In this document: in pieces, positions 21,891 through 29,864 of the stretch | Layout: every line of letters begins with the position of its first letter | Position numbering within the stretch: the stretch's first letter is position 1 | Assembly: GCA_017694345.1 (NCBI GenBank) | Contig: JADIMY010000077.1 | Location: forward strand, 1-40,884 | Length of the DNA: 40,884 bases | Direction: 5' to 3' | Source of the DNA: Candidatus Onthovivens merdipullorum | Lineage (GTDB): Bacteria; Bacillota_I; Bacilli_A; RFN20; CAG-826 | Made by a program: the position numbers and the translations under genes | Notes under the pieces: model-generated | Seen by the model: only the letters and a program-made list of their open reading frames with translations | What the model was told of the DNA's origin: nothing | Database searches by the model: none

Positions 21891-22098
21891 TTATTATTAC
21901 TTTTTTGCTCATCTTTTTCTAATATGGTGCATATTTAATGGTTTTTGTTATAATTATAATAGTTAATATAGTAACGGAAAAAATAAATGAACCAAAGTGA
22001 AAATATTTTAGTAGTTCAAGAAACGAATCATCAGTTTTTACAAAAAGTAGTGAAATTGCATAAATTTTTAATATAGATGGATTTATGAGGTGCTACAC

Positions 22099-23001
22099 AT
22101 GAAAGAAGAAAATAATAAAATGTATAAAAAATATTTTGATGATTTAAGTGAATATTTGAATTCAATTTTTATTTATATACCATGTAATAATCTTGAGCCT
22201 ACTAAAATTGCTGAATTATATGAATTTCTTTTCATTTACTTGTCTAATCATAAATTCAATTTAAGAAAAATAGAGAAGATTATTTATCTATTTTTATTAA
22301 ATAATTTAAATATTGATAATAAAATATTAATAAATATCTATCATAATAAATTAAATTACTCTATTCATAGAATTAAAGTAATTACTTTATTAAATAGAAA
22401 AGAAATTAAATCTTTAATTAACCCAGAAGTTTCTTTAGAAAGTAACAAGATAGCTTTTAATATTTCTTTTAATGATATAGAGTTACCAAAAAATGAATAT
22501 AAAAAGAACTATTTAACTTTAAAAATAAGTTTAAGCATTATTTTTGCTTTAATTATAGCTATTTTTTTGTTTTTAATAGGCTTTGAATTAAGCTTTATTC
22601 TTGGCGATAAAACATTAGCACCATTAATTCCGTTTAGTAACGATTTAACATTAAAACTAAGAGAAAACAACAATCCTTTATTTAATGATAACTCTCTGTT
22701 AAAAATGTACGATGAAGAAAACTTAAAAGAAAACGATATAACATACGAATTATCGGTTCAAAATTATGATGAAGTAATTTATATAGATTTTGTTGATATA
22801 AATGGAACGATAAAAGAAATAGAAAGAGGGCAATTAGTAGAAAAATCTTTTTATACAGGTTACTTAACTTATAATGAAAGTAATTACTTATATAATTTCA
22901 CTTACCATAATAAAGACAATGACTATGTAATAAATTTTCAAATGTTTAATAAAGATTTTTCTTATTATACTTCGTTTAATGTTGTTAAATTGTATAACTA
23001 A
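22099..23001 (+). CDS. Uncharacterised single-pass membrane protein
   Basis: A 300-residue protein I do not recognise. Residues 1-138 are charged, Asn/Leu/Ile-rich and mostly helical (cytosolic side predicted). One membrane helix lies at about 140-168 (LKISLSIIFALIIAIFLFLI), and about 130 residues follow, rich in Tyr, Asn and Asp, looking like an extracellular beta domain. This layout resembles membrane-anchored sensors or anti-sigma-like proteins, but no motif supports that. The ATG at 22099 is chosen because GAGGTG (22087-22092) is six bases upstream; a GTG at 22090 lies within that site. It is transcribed in the same direction as its neighbours but is separated by about 240 bases from the ABC pair and 93 from pnp. 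Confidence 0.75.
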   Translation: MKEENNKMYKKYFDDLSEYLNSIFIYIPCNNLEPTKIAELYEFLFIYLSNHKFNLRKIEKIIYLFLLNNLNIDNKILINIYHNKLNYSIHRIKVITLLNRKEIKSLINPEVSLESNKIAFNISFNDIELPKNEYKKNYLTLKISLSIIFALIIAIFLFLIGFELSFILGDKTLAPLIPFSNDLTLKLRENNNPLFNDNSLLKMYDEENLKENDITYELSVQNYDEVIYIDFVDINGTIKEIERGQLVEKSFYTGYLTYNESNYLYNFTYHNKDNDYVINFQMFNKDFSYYTSFNVVKLYN

Positions 23002-23094: not shown

Positions 23095-25269
23095 ATGATG
23101 AAAAAAACATTCGAGTTAGAGTTTTATGGAAAGAAACTCGTAGTAGAAACAGGAGAAATAGCAAAACAAGCAGATGGCGCTGTTTTTACAAGATTTAATG
23201 ACACAGTTGTTTTATCAACTGCTTGCTGTAGTGATGAACCAAAAGAAGGAGACTTCTTTCCTCTCACTGTAAATTATGATGAAAAGCAATACGCAATGGG
23301 TCGAATTCCTGGTGGATTTTTAAGAAGAGAAGGTAGACCTGGTGAACACGCAACCTTAACCGCTAGATTAATTGATCGTCCAATTAGACCAATGTTTAGT
23401 GAAGGATTTAGAAATGAAGTTCAAATCATTAATACTGTAATGTCAGTTGATTTAGATGCTTCTCCAGAAATGACAGCAATGTTTGGTAGTTCACTAGCTT
23501 TATGTATAAGCGATATACCATTCGATGGACCTATTGCTGGAGTTTATGTTGGTAGAGTTAATGGAAAATTAATAATTAATCCAACCGTTGAAGAAAAAGA
23601 AAAAAGTGATTTGAATTTAGCTATTGCTGGAACTAGTGAAGCTATTAATATGGTTGAAGCTGGTGCTAGTGAATTAAGTGAAGACGAAATGCTTGATGCC
23701 ATTATGTTTGGTCATGAAGCTATTAAAAAACTTTGTGAATTCGAAAAAGAAATCGTAAAAGAAGTTGGTAAACCTAAAAGAGAAGTTAAACTTTACGAAG
23801 TTGATGAAAATATTAAAAATGATATTTATTCAAGAATCTATGATCGTATGGTTAAAGCAATTTCTATTTTTGATAAACTTGAAAGAGCAAGTGCAATTGA
23901 TGCTTTAAAGAAAGAAATAATTGACGATTACGATAATCGTGAATATAAAAAAGAAAATGAACATAAGATGACTATGTTAATGGTTAATGATGTTCTTGAA
24001 TCAATGGTTGCTAATGAAGTTAGAAGATTAATTACTGAAGAAAAAGTTAGACCTGATGGTCGTAAAATTGATGAAATTAGACCACTCGATGCTCAAGTTG
24101 ACTTATTACCTAGAGTTCATGGAAGTGCAATGTTTACTAGAGGTCAAACACAAGTTATCTCAACCGTTACTTTAGGAACAAAAAATGATGAACAAATTTT
24201 AGAAAATCTTACAAGTGAAGATAATAAGAGATTTATGCATCACTATAATTTCCCACCTTTTGCTGTTGGTGAAATTGGTCGTACTGGAACTCCTGGTAGA
24301 AGAGAAATTGGACATGGTGCACTTGGAGAAAGAGCATTAAGCTATGTGATTCCTAGTGAAGATGTTTTCCCTTATACGATTAGATGTGTTAGTGAAGTTG
24401 TGGAAAGTAACGGAAGTAGTTCTCAAGCTTCGATTTGTGCTTCTTGTATGGCTTTAATGGCAGCTGGTGTACCAATTAAAGATATGGTTAGTGGTATTGC
24501 AATGGGATTAATTACTAGTGGACCACTTGATGGAAATCACCCTTATACAATCTTAACTGATATTCAAGGTTTAGAAGATCATTTTGGCGATATGGACTTT
24601 AAAGTAGCTGGAACTAAAAATGGTATCACTGCTTTACAAATGGATATTAAGATTAAAGGTGTTACTAGAGAAATTCTTCACGATGCTTTATATCAAGCAA
24701 ATAAAGCTAGAGCACAAATTAGAGAAGTTATGTCTAAAGCAATCAGTGAACCTCGTAAAGAACTTTCAAAATATGCTCCTAAATTTGACATTCTTTATAT
24801 TGATAAAGATAAGATTAAAGATGTTATTGGAAGTGGTGGAAAAACTATTAACGATATTATTGAAAAATGTGATGGAGTTAAAATTGATATTGATGATGAA
24901 GGCAAAGTTACTTTATACCATACCGATATCGATGCGATTAAAAAAGCTCATAGAATTATTGAAAATCTAACTAGAGAAGTAAATGTTGGTGAGGTTTATG
25001 AAGGGGTCGTTACTAGAGTTGAAGACTATGGCTGCTTTGTAAGTTTATTTGGAGATAAAGAAGGTTTATGCCATGTTTCTAGAATGGCTCATGAAAGAAT
25101 TGATTCAGCTAAAAACTATGTTAGAGTTGGCGAAAAATTTAAAGTTAAAGTAATCGATGTCGATAATCATGGCAAAATAAGCCTATCACATAAAGAATTT
25201 TGTGAGCCTAGAGATGGTGAATCACAAAATACAACATTTAAAAAGAAAAAAGGTTTCTTTAAAAAATAG
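23095..25269 (+). CDS. pnp: Polyribonucleotide nucleotidyltransferase (PNPase)
   Basis: Phosphorolytic 3'-to-5' exoribonuclease, a trimer and the main 3' exonuclease in mRNA decay. The 724 residues contain two RNase PH domains: the first with GRIPGGFLRREGRPGE and LIDRPIRPMF, the second with RPDGRKIDEIRPL, RGQTQVISTVTLG and GALGERAL. The C-terminal parts are a KH domain (KDKIKDVIGSGGKTINDIIE, about 575-594) and an S1 domain (about 635-700, VGEVYEGVVTRVEDYGCFVS), ending in a short Lys/Phe tail. AAGGAAA lies about six bases before the ATG; the second codon is also ATG. A strong terminator follows, and the RNase J-like gene comes next, so the two decay genes are adjacent but separately transcribed. 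Confidence 0.98.
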   Translation: MMKKTFELEFYGKKLVVETGEIAKQADGAVFTRFNDTVVLSTACCSDEPKEGDFFPLTVNYDEKQYAMGRIPGGFLRREGRPGEHATLTARLIDRPIRPMFSEGFRNEVQIINTVMSVDLDASPEMTAMFGSSLALCISDIPFDGPIAGVYVGRVNGKLIINPTVEEKEKSDLNLAIAGTSEAINMVEAGASELSEDEMLDAIMFGHEAIKKLCEFEKEIVKEVGKPKREVKLYEVDENIKNDIYSRIYDRMVKAISIFDKLERASAIDALKKEIIDDYDNREYKKENEHKMTMLMVNDVLESMVANEVRRLITEEKVRPDGRKIDEIRPLDAQVDLLPRVHGSAMFTRGQTQVISTVTLGTKNDEQILENLTSEDNKRFMHHYNFPPFAVGEIGRTGTPGRREIGHGALGERALSYVIPSEDVFPYTIRCVSEVVESNGSSSQASICASCMALMAAGVPIKDMVSGIAMGLITSGPLDGNHPYTILTDIQGLEDHFGDMDFKVAGTKNGITALQMDIKIKGVTREILHDALYQANKARAQIREVMSKAISEPRKELSKYAPKFDILYIDKDKIKDVIGSGGKTINDIIEKCDGVKIDIDDEGKVTLYHTDIDAIKKAHRIIENLTREVNVGEVYEGVVTRVEDYGCFVSLFGDKEGLCHVSRMAHERIDSAKNYVRVGEKFKVKVIDVDNHGKISLSHKEFCEPRDGESQNTTFKKKKGFFKK

Positions 25270-25280
25270 TTGATACAAAT

Positions 25281-25310
25281 AAAAAATGCTCGAAATGAGC
25301 ATTTTTTATT
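25281..25310 (+). terminator. Rho-independent terminator after pnp
   Basis: AAAAAATGCTC (25281-25291) and GAGCATTTTTT (25297-25307) form a perfect 11-pair stem around GAAAT. The flanking A and T runs could also allow function on the opposite strand. Confidence 0.92.
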
Positions 25311-25337
25311 TAAGATTAGCTAAAAATAATATATAAT
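25310..25337 (+). promoter_or_regulatory. Promoter of the RNase J-like gene
   Basis: TTAAGA (25310-25315), a 16-base spacer, perfect TATAAT (25332-25337). AAAGGGG follows at about 25348-25354, eight bases before the ATG. Confidence 0.6.
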
Positions 25338-25361
25338 ACATTCATTCAAAGGGGATATATT

Positions 25362-27056
25362 ATGGAAAATATTAAAGTACTAGCTTTAGGTGGTTTAGAT
25401 GAGGAGGGCAAAGGTCTTTATTGTATTGAAATAAACGATAACATCTATGTAATAAACGCTGGCTTTAAATATCCAAATAAATTTACCCCAGGTATTGATT
25501 TTATAATTGCAGATTACACTTATTTAAAAGAAAATAAAGAAAAAATAAAGGCTTATATTTTACCTCGAGGAAAGAAAAATAATTTTGGGGCTTTACCTTA
25601 TATTTATAAGGAGTGTCCTGCTCCAATATATTGTACAAAACTTACTAAAATATTCTTTTTAGAATTTGCTACTTACTATAAACAAATGAGCGATTTTGAT
25701 ATTCATCTAATCACTTTACCTTCTAAAGTAATGATTAGTGGCTATCAATTTGAATTTTTCTCTACTTGTAGTAGTGTCCCTTATTCTTTTGGTTTTAGTA
25801 TTAAAACAGAATTAGGAAATATTGTTTATAGTGGTGACTTTATCGTCGAATATAATAATAGCCAATATTTTAATTTTGATTTAAATACAATTGGTAAAAT
25901 CGCCGAAAGACATACTTTACTATTGATGTGTGAATCAGTAAACGCTAGTAAACACGGATATTGTTCTCCAAACAATCGATTATATCCTCATTTACTACAA
26001 TTTTTTGAAAATGCTCCAGGAAGAATTTTCATCGCTTTAGATGATGATAATTTTTATCATTTTGAAGAAGTTTTTAGAATTTGTTATGAATTTAATAAAA
26101 AGATTTGTTTTTACGATGAATATTCTAAAAAGATTTATGATTTAAAAGATTATCGTACGAATAATGAAGAAGAAATTATTCCTAATAAGATTATTAGTAT
26201 TGAAGATATATTAAGAGTAAAAGAAAATGAATTAGTCGTCATTATGGCAGGGCAAAAAGAAGAACTTTACGATAAAGTTAGTTTATTTGCTAATAATGAA
26301 CATGAAATTAGACAACTTAGACTTCAACCTAATGATACCTTTATTTTGGCTTGTCCACCAAACGATTCTAATGAAGTTATATTTACTACGACAATTGACG
26401 AAATTTATCGTAGTGGGTGTCATGTAAATTATTTAACTAATCGACAAATTGCGACAATGCACGCTTATGAAGAAGATATTAAAATGTTACTTAGTTTACT
26501 TAAACCAGAATATTATTTTTCAATTGAAGGGTATTATGTAAATTTACTTGCTAATGCTAAAATTGCTTTTGATATGCACTTAAATTTATCTCATAAAAAT
26601 ATATTTTTATTAGATAATGGACAAACTTTAAAAATTAATGAAAAAGGTGCTGAAGTTGATTTTAATAATGACAATCACATCAAAGTTGGTGATGTAATGA
26701 TTGATGGAATTGGGGTTGGCGATGTCGTTAATGAAATTATTAATGATCGCACTAGACTTAGTGAAGATGGTGTCATCGTTTTAGGATGTGGGGCAAGTAG
26801 AGCAAAAAGATGTATTGCTTATGGTCCAGATGTCCAAATGAGAGGTTTCTTATTTTTAAAAGATAAAGATGCTGATTTAATTTTAAAAGAAGTAACAAAA
26901 TTATTTATCGAAGGAGTTAGTAATTGGCTAATGGAAACTAAAGATTTTGATACGAGCAAAATCGAATTTCGATTAAATGAAGCGATTACTAAGTTTATAT
27001 TTAAAGAAAACGGAAGAGATCCAGTAATTAAAGCAAATATAATTCTTTTAGATTAA
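25362..27056 (+). CDS. RNase J-like protein lacking the catalytic metal-binding motif
   Basis: The 564-residue protein aligns along its length with RNase J1/J2 (metallo-beta-lactamase, beta-CASP and C-terminal domains): LALGGLDEEGKGLY, GIDFIIADYTYLKENKEKIK, YSGDF, then the C-terminal VGDVMIDGIGVGDVVNEIIN. The active site is eroded. The HGHEDHIG motif of RNase J is RGKKNNFG here (residues 69-76), removing the zinc-binding His and Asp residues. The His of TTHSIPDS is Ser137, and the HGEYR motif reads EGYYV. Asp159 remains. Catalysis by the usual mechanism is therefore unlikely. In Firmicutes RNase J1 and J2 form a heteromer and J2 is weaker, so this is probably a structural or regulatory J2-like partner of an active J1 encoded elsewhere. 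The frame is intact, with a normal promoter and ribosome site. Confidence 0.88.
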   Translation: MENIKVLALGGLDEEGKGLYCIEINDNIYVINAGFKYPNKFTPGIDFIIADYTYLKENKEKIKAYILPRGKKNNFGALPYIYKECPAPIYCTKLTKIFFLEFATYYKQMSDFDIHLITLPSKVMISGYQFEFFSTCSSVPYSFGFSIKTELGNIVYSGDFIVEYNNSQYFNFDLNTIGKIAERHTLLLMCESVNASKHGYCSPNNRLYPHLLQFFENAPGRIFIALDDDNFYHFEEVFRICYEFNKKICFYDEYSKKIYDLKDYRTNNEEEIIPNKIISIEDILRVKENELVVIMAGQKEELYDKVSLFANNEHEIRQLRLQPNDTFILACPPNDSNEVIFTTTIDEIYRSGCHVNYLTNRQIATMHAYEEDIKMLLSLLKPEYYFSIEGYYVNLLANAKIAFDMHLNLSHKNIFLLDNGQTLKINEKGAEVDFNNDNHIKVGDVMIDGIGVGDVVNEIINDRTRLSEDGVIVLGCGASRAKRCIAYGPDVQMRGFLFLKDKDADLILKEVTKLFIEGVSNWLMETKDFDTSKIEFRLNEAITKFIFKENGRDPVIKANIILLD

Positions 27057-27107: not shown

Positions 27108-29864
27108 ATGAGTAAAGGTGAATTATTTAATAAAATTAATCGTAATAGTTTAAAAAGAGTTCTTGGAATAAGTGTATGCTTATTAAGTATATTTATCTCT
27201 TTAAATCACGGTTATGTGAGTGGTTTTTTATTTTGGTGTATTGCTTTTATTTTTGGATCTATCTATACCTATATTATTTGTATTATTTTATTTTTATTTG
27301 GATTAAGTTATATTGTTCAAAAAAGAATTACTTTTCATAATATTAAATTTATTATTATTGGTTTAATTTTAGTTTTAATTGGTTCACTTATTGCAATTAC
27401 CAATTCATTAACGACGGTTGATGGAGTTTCTTTAACTTTTTCTAATTTTAGTGAAACATTTATTAATTCTTTATCTTTAAATGAATTTCCTATAATTAAT
27501 CGGAATAGTTGTGGAATTATTGGCTATATTTTGGTTGCTTTATTAAATAGTGCTATGACTAGTGTTGGAAGTATTGTTTTTTCAACTATTTTAATTGTTT
27601 TAGGAGTAATTTTTATTTTACTTAGACCAATATATTATTTATTTAAAACAATTAAAATAGATAATAAATCAGTTAATGAAAATAGTGAAGTAATAAACGA
27701 ATATAAAGAAGAGTCTAATTTAATTAGTGAAGAGTATGGATTTACTAATCCTTTAACTAGGGATGGTCCAAATAACGATTATTTAGATAAAGAAGAAGTT
27801 AAAGAACAAGTCATTTTAAAAGAAGAACCTAAAATAGAAATTTCTGAAACTAAAAAACCTGAAGTTAAAGTAACTAACGATATAATCGATGAAAGACCTT
27901 ACTTTAATACGAACAGTTTTAAAAATAATAGTTTAGAAAAAGTTAAATTAAATTTAAGTGATGACGATAAAAAAGTTTCTTCTAATAATATTGCTCATTC
28001 CTATCAATCTAATTTAAATAATTATCCAAATGCTTATGAAGAAGTTAAAAATAATTATATAAAAGAAACTGAGTCTACACCTAAACAAAATGTTTCTGAA
28101 AATAATTTTGTAAATAATACTAATGTAAATAATAAAAATGAAAATGATTTATCCTATAGTTTTAGTCAAAGTGAAAATAAACAAAATGAAGAAAAAGTAA
28201 TTACCGATCATCCAATTAGTAATACTAACAATTCACCTGCTTTTTCTAAAACTCAAGTGATTTCTAAATCGATTGAACCTAAAAAAACTATTAATCTAAA
28301 TCAGGTTAATTCTTTAAAAAAACCTGCAGAACACGCTTCAAATGCTCCGTATATGGAAGTTCCACTTGATATTTTGGACGATCGTACAAGTGAAAATGAG
28401 GATAAAGAAAATATCTTAGTTTGTGAAGAAAGAAAAGCAAAAATTAATAGTATTTTAAATGATTTAGGTGTTAAAGCTCGTATTGTTTCTTATAAAATTG
28501 GACCATCTGTTACAAGATTCGATTTAGAAACTGATAAAAATGTTTCGGTAAATGGAATTGAAAAATATATGAACGATATTTCAATTCGTTTAGGAGGACT
28601 TGTCGCTAGATTTGTTCCAATTGTTTTAGGAAAATCGACTAGTGGTATCGAAATTGCTAATGCTGCTAGGTCAATTGTTAATTTTAAGGATGTTTATGAA
28701 CATCTTCCTCCTAGAAAACTCGATGAACTATATATTCCTTTTGGTAAAAATATAAGTGGTGATTACATGCAAGCTAATTTATTAGATTTTCCACATATGC
28801 TCGTATGTGGAACAACTGGTAGTGGAAAATCTATTTTTATGCATTCGGTTATTTTATCAATCATTATGCGTTATGCTCCTAGTGAAGTTAGATTATGTAT
28901 GGTCGACCCTAAAAGAGTAGAATTTTCTAAATATAAAGATGAACCACATTTGCTTTGCCCAATTATAAGTGATCCTAATTTAGCTTATGCTACAACTACT
29001 AAGTTAGTCGATGAAATGGAAAATAGATTTACTTCATTTGAACTCGCTGGGGTTAGTAATATAAAACAATATAATAAATATGCTAGAGAAACTGGCCTAG
29101 AGCCTATTCCATATATCGTTTTAATTATTGATGAATTCGCTGATTTAGTAGAAAGTGTTAAAACAATTATTCAACCTGTTCAACGTCTTGGACAAAAAGC
29201 TAGAGCAGCAGGTATTCATATGATTATTGCTACTCAAAGACCATCAACCGATGTTTTACCTGGAACTGTTAAAGCTAATCTCGCCGTTAGAGTTGCTTTA
29301 ATGACTTCAAGTCCTGTCGATAGTAATGTTATTTTAGGTGAAGGTGGAGCTGAAAAACTTTTAGGAAACGGCGATATGTTAGTCATGTGCCAACTTATTT
29401 CAAAAGCAGAAAAACCTCGTGTTCAAGGATGTTTTGTCGATAATAGTGAAATTAGAAGAGTGGTTGATCTTCTTAAGAGTTGTTATGAACTCGAATATAA
29501 TAAGGATTTTGTTGGGTTATTAGATAAAGCTAAAGCTGATGAAAATACCATTGGTATCCTTCACGATAGTAATAGTGAAGACGATGAACGATATGAAGAA
29601 ATTAAAGAATATGTCATGGAAACAAAAGAATATTGTTCAATTTCGATGATCCAAAGAGAATTTAAATTTGGTTATGGAAGAAGTCAAAGAATGTTTAATC
29701 GTCTTATTGAAGAAGGAATTATTGAAAAACCACCAACTAATAATAATTCAAAAGGTGCTAAAGTTTTGATTCATACTAAAGATTTTAATGATCCAAACAA
29801 TCAAACAGTTCACCCAGGGAGTTATTCACAATCATCTTTTGAAAGTAATAATGAAAATAGTTAA
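27108..29864 (+). CDS. ftsK: DNA translocase FtsK/SpoIIIE
   Basis: Septum-anchored ATPase that pumps chromosomal DNA through the closing division site. The 918 residues comprise about four to five N-terminal membrane helices (up to about 185), a low-complexity linker rich in Asn, Glu, Lys and Ser (about 190-420), the alpha/beta motor with Walker A TTGSGKS (about 568-574) and Walker B IVLIIDEFADLV (about 670-681), TQRPSTDVLPGTVKANLAVR, and a C-terminal winged-helix gamma domain (about 825-880, SISMIQREFKFGYGRSQRMF) that reads orientation sequences. It cannot be assigned to FtsK rather than SpoIIIE from sequence alone. The start has no ribosome site; see the -10 at 27092. acpS follows after three bases. 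Confidence 0.96.
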   Translation: MSKGELFNKINRNSLKRVLGISVCLLSIFISLNHGYVSGFLFWCIAFIFGSIYTYIICIILFLFGLSYIVQKRITFHNIKFIIIGLILVLIGSLIAITNSLTTVDGVSLTFSNFSETFINSLSLNEFPIINRNSCGIIGYILVALLNSAMTSVGSIVFSTILIVLGVIFILLRPIYYLFKTIKIDNKSVNENSEVINEYKEESNLISEEYGFTNPLTRDGPNNDYLDKEEVKEQVILKEEPKIEISETKKPEVKVTNDIIDERPYFNTNSFKNNSLEKVKLNLSDDDKKVSSNNIAHSYQSNLNNYPNAYEEVKNNYIKETESTPKQNVSENNFVNNTNVNNKNENDLSYSFSQSENKQNEEKVITDHPISNTNNSPAFSKTQVISKSIEPKKTINLNQVNSLKKPAEHASNAPYMEVPLDILDDRTSENEDKENILVCEERKAKINSILNDLGVKARIVSYKIGPSVTRFDLETDKNVSVNGIEKYMNDISIRLGGLVARFVPIVLGKSTSGIEIANAARSIVNFKDVYEHLPPRKLDELYIPFGKNISGDYMQANLLDFPHMLVCGTTGSGKSIFMHSVILSIIMRYAPSEVRLCMVDPKRVEFSKYKDEPHLLCPIISDPNLAYATTTKLVDEMENRFTSFELAGVSNIKQYNKYARETGLEPIPYIVLIIDEFADLVESVKTIIQPVQRLGQKARAAGIHMIIATQRPSTDVLPGTVKANLAVRVALMTSSPVDSNVILGEGGAEKLLGNGDMLVMCQLISKAEKPRVQGCFVDNSEIRRVVDLLKSCYELEYNKDFVGLLDKAKADENTIGILHDSNSEDDERYEEIKEYVMETKEYCSISMIQREFKFGYGRSQRMFNRLIEEGIIEKPPTNNNSKGAKVLIHTKDFNDPNNQTVHPGSYSQSSFESNNENS

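Follow-up and report, generated by a model that had tools for sequence, protein, structure and literature searches.

Recurrent erasure of the metal site in RNase J2 points to a probable non-catalytic partner of RNase J1

A gene encoding a full-length RNase J-like protein whose metal-binding motifs have been erased raises the question of whether its product can still be a ribonuclease, and, if not, why the gene is kept. The ORF occupies positions 25362–27056 (+) of the window, by which we mean the whole stretch of 40,884 nucleotides analyzed from Candidatus Onthovivens merdipullorum, and encodes 564 amino acids from an ATG start in an intact frame. RNase J profile matches span the full length of the protein with scores below the profile cut-offs (NF047419 RnjA, 334 bits versus 820; TIGR00649, 315 bits versus 400), and the Pfam matches comprise the β-CASP and C-terminal domains only. 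The architecture is that of RNase J, with a metallo-β-lactamase (MBL) domain, a β-CASP domain, and the RNase J C-terminal domain in approximately 550 residues. In the structure of S. epidermidis J1, metal A is bound by Asp78, His79, Asp164, and His390, and metal B by His74, His76, His142, and Asp164 (PMC7864078). Using this numbering, site 1 is defined here as His74, His76, His142, and Asp164, and site 2 as Asp78, His79, Asp164, and His390. The combination that characterizes a catalytic RNase J (HxHxDH together with His142, Asp164, His390, and two metal ions) is absent from the window protein, which has R69, K71, N73, N74, S137, and E389 at the ligand positions and D159 as the sole survivor. 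Thus, RGKKNNFG (residues 69–76; 25566–25589, +) stands in the place of HGHEDHIG in motif 2, and Ser137 (25770–25772, +), within FSTCSSVPYSF (residues 133–143), in that of the metal-1 ligand His142. The sequence EGYYV (residues 389–393; 26526–26540, +) replaces HGEYR, with loss of the metal-2 ligand His390. Asp159 (25836–25838, +; residues 155–161, VYSGDFI) is retained where S. epidermidis J1 has its bridging ligand, Asp164, and the β-CASP motif-B histidine, His367 (26460–26462, +; J1 His368), is kept as well. Both metal sites are gone, and the aspartate common to the two is the only ligand left. An earlier note on this DNA had read the altered motifs and Asp159 identically, residue by residue, without mentioning His367, and its description of an intact ORF with RNase J architecture over the full length agrees with the unbroken frame, the profile matches, and the predicted fold.

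A tree built from 127 RNase J proteins separates J1 from J2 with a support of 100 and places the window protein on the J2 side, where it forms one clade with 23 orthologues from its genus (support 100) inside the J2s of their family. The gene lies between pnp, encoding polynucleotide phosphorylase (23095–25269, +), and a gene for an ftsK/spoIIIE-type DNA translocase (27108–29864, +). This pnp-J2-ftsK order recurs at every other locus checked in the genus and in much or most of the family, so that the position near both neighbours is conserved at the family level, and J2-ftsK also occurs in some other families. The B. subtilis neighbourhood is similar, with rnjB flanked by pnpA and spoIIIE, though with additional genes in the interval. 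Judged from tree placement and synteny, the window protein is an ordinary RNase J2 (rnjB) orthologue and not an extra copy, as the term paralogue used in the earlier note could be taken to mean. An AlphaFold2 model of the protein (mean pLDDT 90.2, pTM 0.78) has an intact RNase J fold. Its closest structure match is S. epidermidis J2 (6k6w; Z 46.7, 437 residues, 2.2 Å), and its best full-length Foldseek match is the B. subtilis RNJ2-RNJ1 model (9a5v; 548 residues aligned). The structural check that had been proposed was thereby answered in part, with a confident fold nearest to that of S. epidermidis J2.

The genome from which the window derives (1.46 Mb in 137 contigs, 86% complete) encodes RNase Y and, at another locus, a canonical J1 with a complete site (HGHEDHIG, THSIPDS, TGDFK, HGEYH), which settles the proposed search for a canonical rnjA and shows that J2 coexists with such an enzyme. 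Between pnp and rnjB there is a terminator-like hairpin (25277–25311, +; −15.9 kcal/mol, z −6.1), followed by a σ70-like promoter, TTAAGA-16-TATAAT (25310–25337, +), identified by consensus match only, and by a ribosome-binding-site-like AGGGGA read by eye (25350–25355, +). Sites resembling this promoter were no more frequent than in shuffled sequence, so that the match alone is not above chance. The promoter previously assigned to the gene is plausible, as is the ribosome site, and together with the hairpin they would fit separate expression of rnjB. Upstream of pnp, a 303-aa ORF (22090–23001) without an NCBIfam match contains one hydrophobic segment and looks like a membrane-anchored protein.

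To place the loss of the metal site, we compared the J2 orthologues of the genus, which were found in 24 of 26 genomes with 56–77% identity and no internal stops. All 24 have lost the metal-1 histidines and retain one of the four metal-1 ligands. None has the complete set of ligands with which S. epidermidis J2 holds a single metal (His74, His76, His142, and Asp/Glu164), and none keeps HGHEDH, whose retention in homologues of the same clade the earlier note had named as an observation that would speak against its reading. The absence of J2 from the 2 other genomes (G011 and G019) is uninformative because the contigs end: one stops at pnp, and the other continues with an unrelated gene before its end. 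An alignment of 22 species of the genus has Lys at position 69 (Arg in the window protein), an invariant Lys at position 71, and Ala or Ser at position 137, with Asp159 and His367 invariant. At the level of identity, His69, His71, His137, and Pro50 are the only residues common to J1 and the other J2s but absent from the genus. At the level of residue class, 14 of the 138 core positions conserved in J1 and the other J2s are lost, among them 4 of the set's 5 ligand positions (Fisher p 3e-4 in a post-hoc test). Another of the 14 is position 227, F in J1, Y/F in the other J2s, and N/H/P/D/A in the genus, which by our own reading of the alignment we take to be F241 of S. coelicolor RNase J. That residue is an aromatic residue of the RNA pocket (PMC4652760). 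As read from these alignments, the genus-wide loss of the site is more than a chance event in one genome.

The sequences show a stepwise loss. His390 is present in 0 of 158 J2 sequences examined, a count that is true partly by definition, since a complete motif was the criterion for excluding J1s, although the J2 clade of the trees agrees with it. Most J2s in the order of the window organism have HGHDD(Q/E/N), that is, an intact site 1 and a lost site 2, and the J2s of the order are also without the GSQGE loop and the J1 residues of the 5′-phosphate pocket. Of the 158 sequences, 92 retain the full set of four metal-1 ligands. The comparison thus indicates that the J2s of the order first lost site 2 (His79, His390) and several residues of the RNA channel, and that the genus then lost site 1. 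The earlier proposal of a full conversion is correct in that both sites are gone from the window protein, but this was not a single conversion, site 2 having already been lost across the order's J2s.

In a tree of 113 rows from which the motif columns had been removed, the state of the metal site changes six times, the placement of some single losses being unsure because of long branches (L068, L252, L263, L266). The tree suggests six or more separate losses of the site, one of them at the root of a TGA-recoding Mollicutes-type clade; the firm losses are those of the window genus (g1), of a sibling genus (g7), and of the Mollicutes-type clade. Grouping of g1 and g7 as one clade was rejected (p-AU 0.012, on a 31-row subset under a simpler model). 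Across nine species of g7, J2 retains 3, 2, 2, 1, 1, 1, 1, 1, and 0 of the four site-1 ligands, and the protein with 0 of 4 still has a confident predicted fold (pLDDT 89.8). This graded decay of the site inside one genus (L077, L079, L094, L095, L185–L189) is apparently erosion in progress. Members of three families (f7, f14, f26) likewise have little or nothing left of site 1. The metal site is erased in all 22 sampled J2s of TGA-recoding Mollicutes-type genomes (L248, L252–L254, L256, L258, L259, L261, L263, L264, L273, L226–L234, L244, L274) and in Spiroplasma platyhelix, whose J1 is canonical; the label Mollicutes-type rests on TGA recoding and this one named genome. In these genomes the replacement residues vary by family and the partner J1 is canonical where read. 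A Lys at ligand position 69 or 71 arose independently in several site-losing lineages. The loss is thus neither a lone oddity of one genome nor unique to the window protein. Two further observations concern the presence of the gene. One J2 (G044; L078/L184) is split by frame breaks, probably sequencing errors because the adjoining gene for an FAD-dependent oxidoreductase is broken too. Three genomes approximately 91–93% complete (G075, G149, and G159) have well-covered regions downstream of pnp without J2 (L181, L182, and L183, respectively), and J2 may have been lost or moved there.

The gene was said to be maintained, and this is borne out by the substitution pattern. The closest J2 pairs of the genus have a dN/dS of approximately 0.06–0.16 at a dS of 0.4–0.65, which is high for the Nei-Gojobori method used, and approximately 145 residues are invariant over the 22 species, indicating purifying selection on the gene. 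When J2 and J1 distances between the same two genomes are compared, the J2/J1 ratio has a median of 1.76 in the genus (45 pairs), within the range of 1.3–2.25 of genera keeping site 1, and overall constraint is thus unchanged by the erasure. Such a pattern is as would be expected if J2 were not kept for catalysis.

The window protein therefore combines the features of a β-CASP pseudonuclease partner, namely lost ligands, a conserved fold and gene, and a paralogue with a complete active site in the genome. We consider it quite probable that it is the RNase J2 subunit of the RNase J machinery, now a metal-free pseudonuclease acting as a non-catalytic partner of J1. It would pair with the catalytically complete J1 of its own genome and stabilize or position it for 5′-3′ RNA decay, and would itself cut no RNA. 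The suggestion made earlier was of a non-catalytic scaffold or RNA-binding partner. The scaffold is the better supported reading of the sequences because the motif is absent from every homologue in the genus, selection on the gene is purifying, and the genome encodes a canonical J1; RNA binding is less likely because the aromatic pocket residue is lost and the β-CASP face of the cleft is acidic.

That face was characterized by summing charges at hand-picked positions. On the metal side of the cleft the mean charge is −3.3 in J1, −2.0 in the other J2s, and +0.7 in the genus, and on the β-CASP side it is 0.0, −0.9, and −3.3, respectively. The metal-free cleft of the genus would thus have about the charge of J1 with two divalent metal ions. 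Lys69 and Lys71 may have taken over the charge-balancing role of the metal beside Asp159, and the acidic residues across the cleft could pair with these lysines or exclude RNA. Invariant polar residues persist in the old cleft (K71, C136, D159, H367), and these residues and charges can be read in other ways. In one, lysines 69, 71, and 365 replace the metals in a pseudo-active site that binds RNA or phosphate, and J2 guides substrate to J1. The invariance of K71 and of the motif-B His367, the near invariance of K69 and K365, and the net positive metal side would suit this, but the genus has lost the aromatic at position 227, the GSQGE loop, and J1 His364, the β-CASP side has become more acidic than in the other J2s, position 365 is Thr in the window protein itself, and the charge sums rest on positions chosen by hand, so that we regard this as unlikely. 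It is more doubtful still that the old site became a lysine-based one free of metal (K69, K71, D159, H367, C136) that acts on RNA, either as a nuclease with no need of metal or by sensing phosphate and so gating J1. In a related and highly improbable form of this idea, K69, K71, C136, D159, H367, and Y391 would make a new acid-base site of a ribonuclease or other hydrolase. All six show little or no variation in the genus and would surround the former active site of a well-predicted fold, but D159 and H367 were already present in ordinary J2s, C136 is present in some J2s that keep the metal, and the other site-losing lineages use different residues with no common replacement set. Decay into a pseudogene after loss of J2 function, at which the faster divergence of J2 than of J1 (ratio approximately 1.8) and the few more distant genomes without J2 beside pnp might hint, has next to no probability and was rejected in view of the intact ORFs in all 24 orthologues, a dN/dS well below 1, the many residues invariant in the genus, and a relative rate the same as in metal-keeping J2s.

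The reading of J2 as a non-catalytic partner has genetic precedent. In S. aureus, a J2 active-site mutant has no phenotype and a J2 deletion has one, and plasmid-borne inactive J1 partly complements the loss of J2 (PMC3937233). The natural erasures, as read from sequence, fit this model of J2 as a structural partner of J1. However, 92 of 158 J2s keep all four metal-1 ligands, and the site therefore has some use in most lineages. Moreover, J2s are not inert everywhere: the single-metal (Mn) J2 of S. epidermidis acts as an endonuclease in vitro (PMC7864078), and the J2 of S. mutans is active as well (PMC6759994).

Several known proteins resemble the window protein. The J2 of S. aureus and S. epidermidis (HGHEHA; 6k6w) is a full-length relative with the same fold, a paralogue of an active J1 in which the position of J1 His390 is lost and the catalytic motif is degenerate, and in S. 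aureus its structural role is the one backed by genetics. In contrast to the window protein, which keeps the acidic residue only, the staphylococcal protein binds one Mn via H76, H78, H80, H144, and E166 (PMC7864078). B. subtilis J2 (rnjB; 9a5v), the best full-length match, is reported to form a heteromer with J1. It is cited as having residual endonuclease activity (PMC4652760), whereas the window sequence has no metal site. The J2s of Mollicutes, such as that of Spiroplasma platyhelix, belong to the same orthologous group and likewise combine an erased site with a canonical J1 where both were read, but they lost the site independently, and their seven ligand positions carry different residues (NAYNSDK, KSECTDK, DKESGNQ). 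A survey counts J1 and J2 in the small set of RNases common to all Mollicutes and discusses both as active enzymes (PMC4014445). The minimal cell Syn3.0 retains RnjB (MMSYN1_0257; PMC4993169), the loss described here having been read from the 22 sampled sequences and S. platyhelix. In the same MBL/β-CASP superfamily, INTS9 and CPSF100 are inactive partners of the active paralogues INTS11 and CPSF73, and INTS9, in which NYHC has replaced HxHxDH, has been called a pseudoenzyme (PMC7980224). They differ in acting in eukaryotic 3′-end processing with other dimerization domains and scaffold partners, and they stem from a separate duplication, which makes them a parallel and not the same family.

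J2 as a weak or structural partner and β-CASP pseudonucleases in eukaryotes are thus already known. In the open literature, with subscription journals outside the scope of the search, we found no paper calling these J2s pseudoenzymes and no account of the J2 metal site being erased completely and repeatedly, or of Mollicutes J2 as a pseudoenzyme. The role of J2 is disputed, being structural according to S. aureus genetics and active according to the biochemistry of S. epidermidis and S. mutans. Evolution appears to have performed the active-site knock-out at least six times with the gene kept, including in mycoplasma-type genomes. If this is true, a purely structural J2 would be a clean tool to learn what J2 does for J1, the label ribonuclease J now given to these proteins should be revised, and J1 with J2 would be a bacterial parallel of CPSF73-CPSF100 and INTS11-INTS9.
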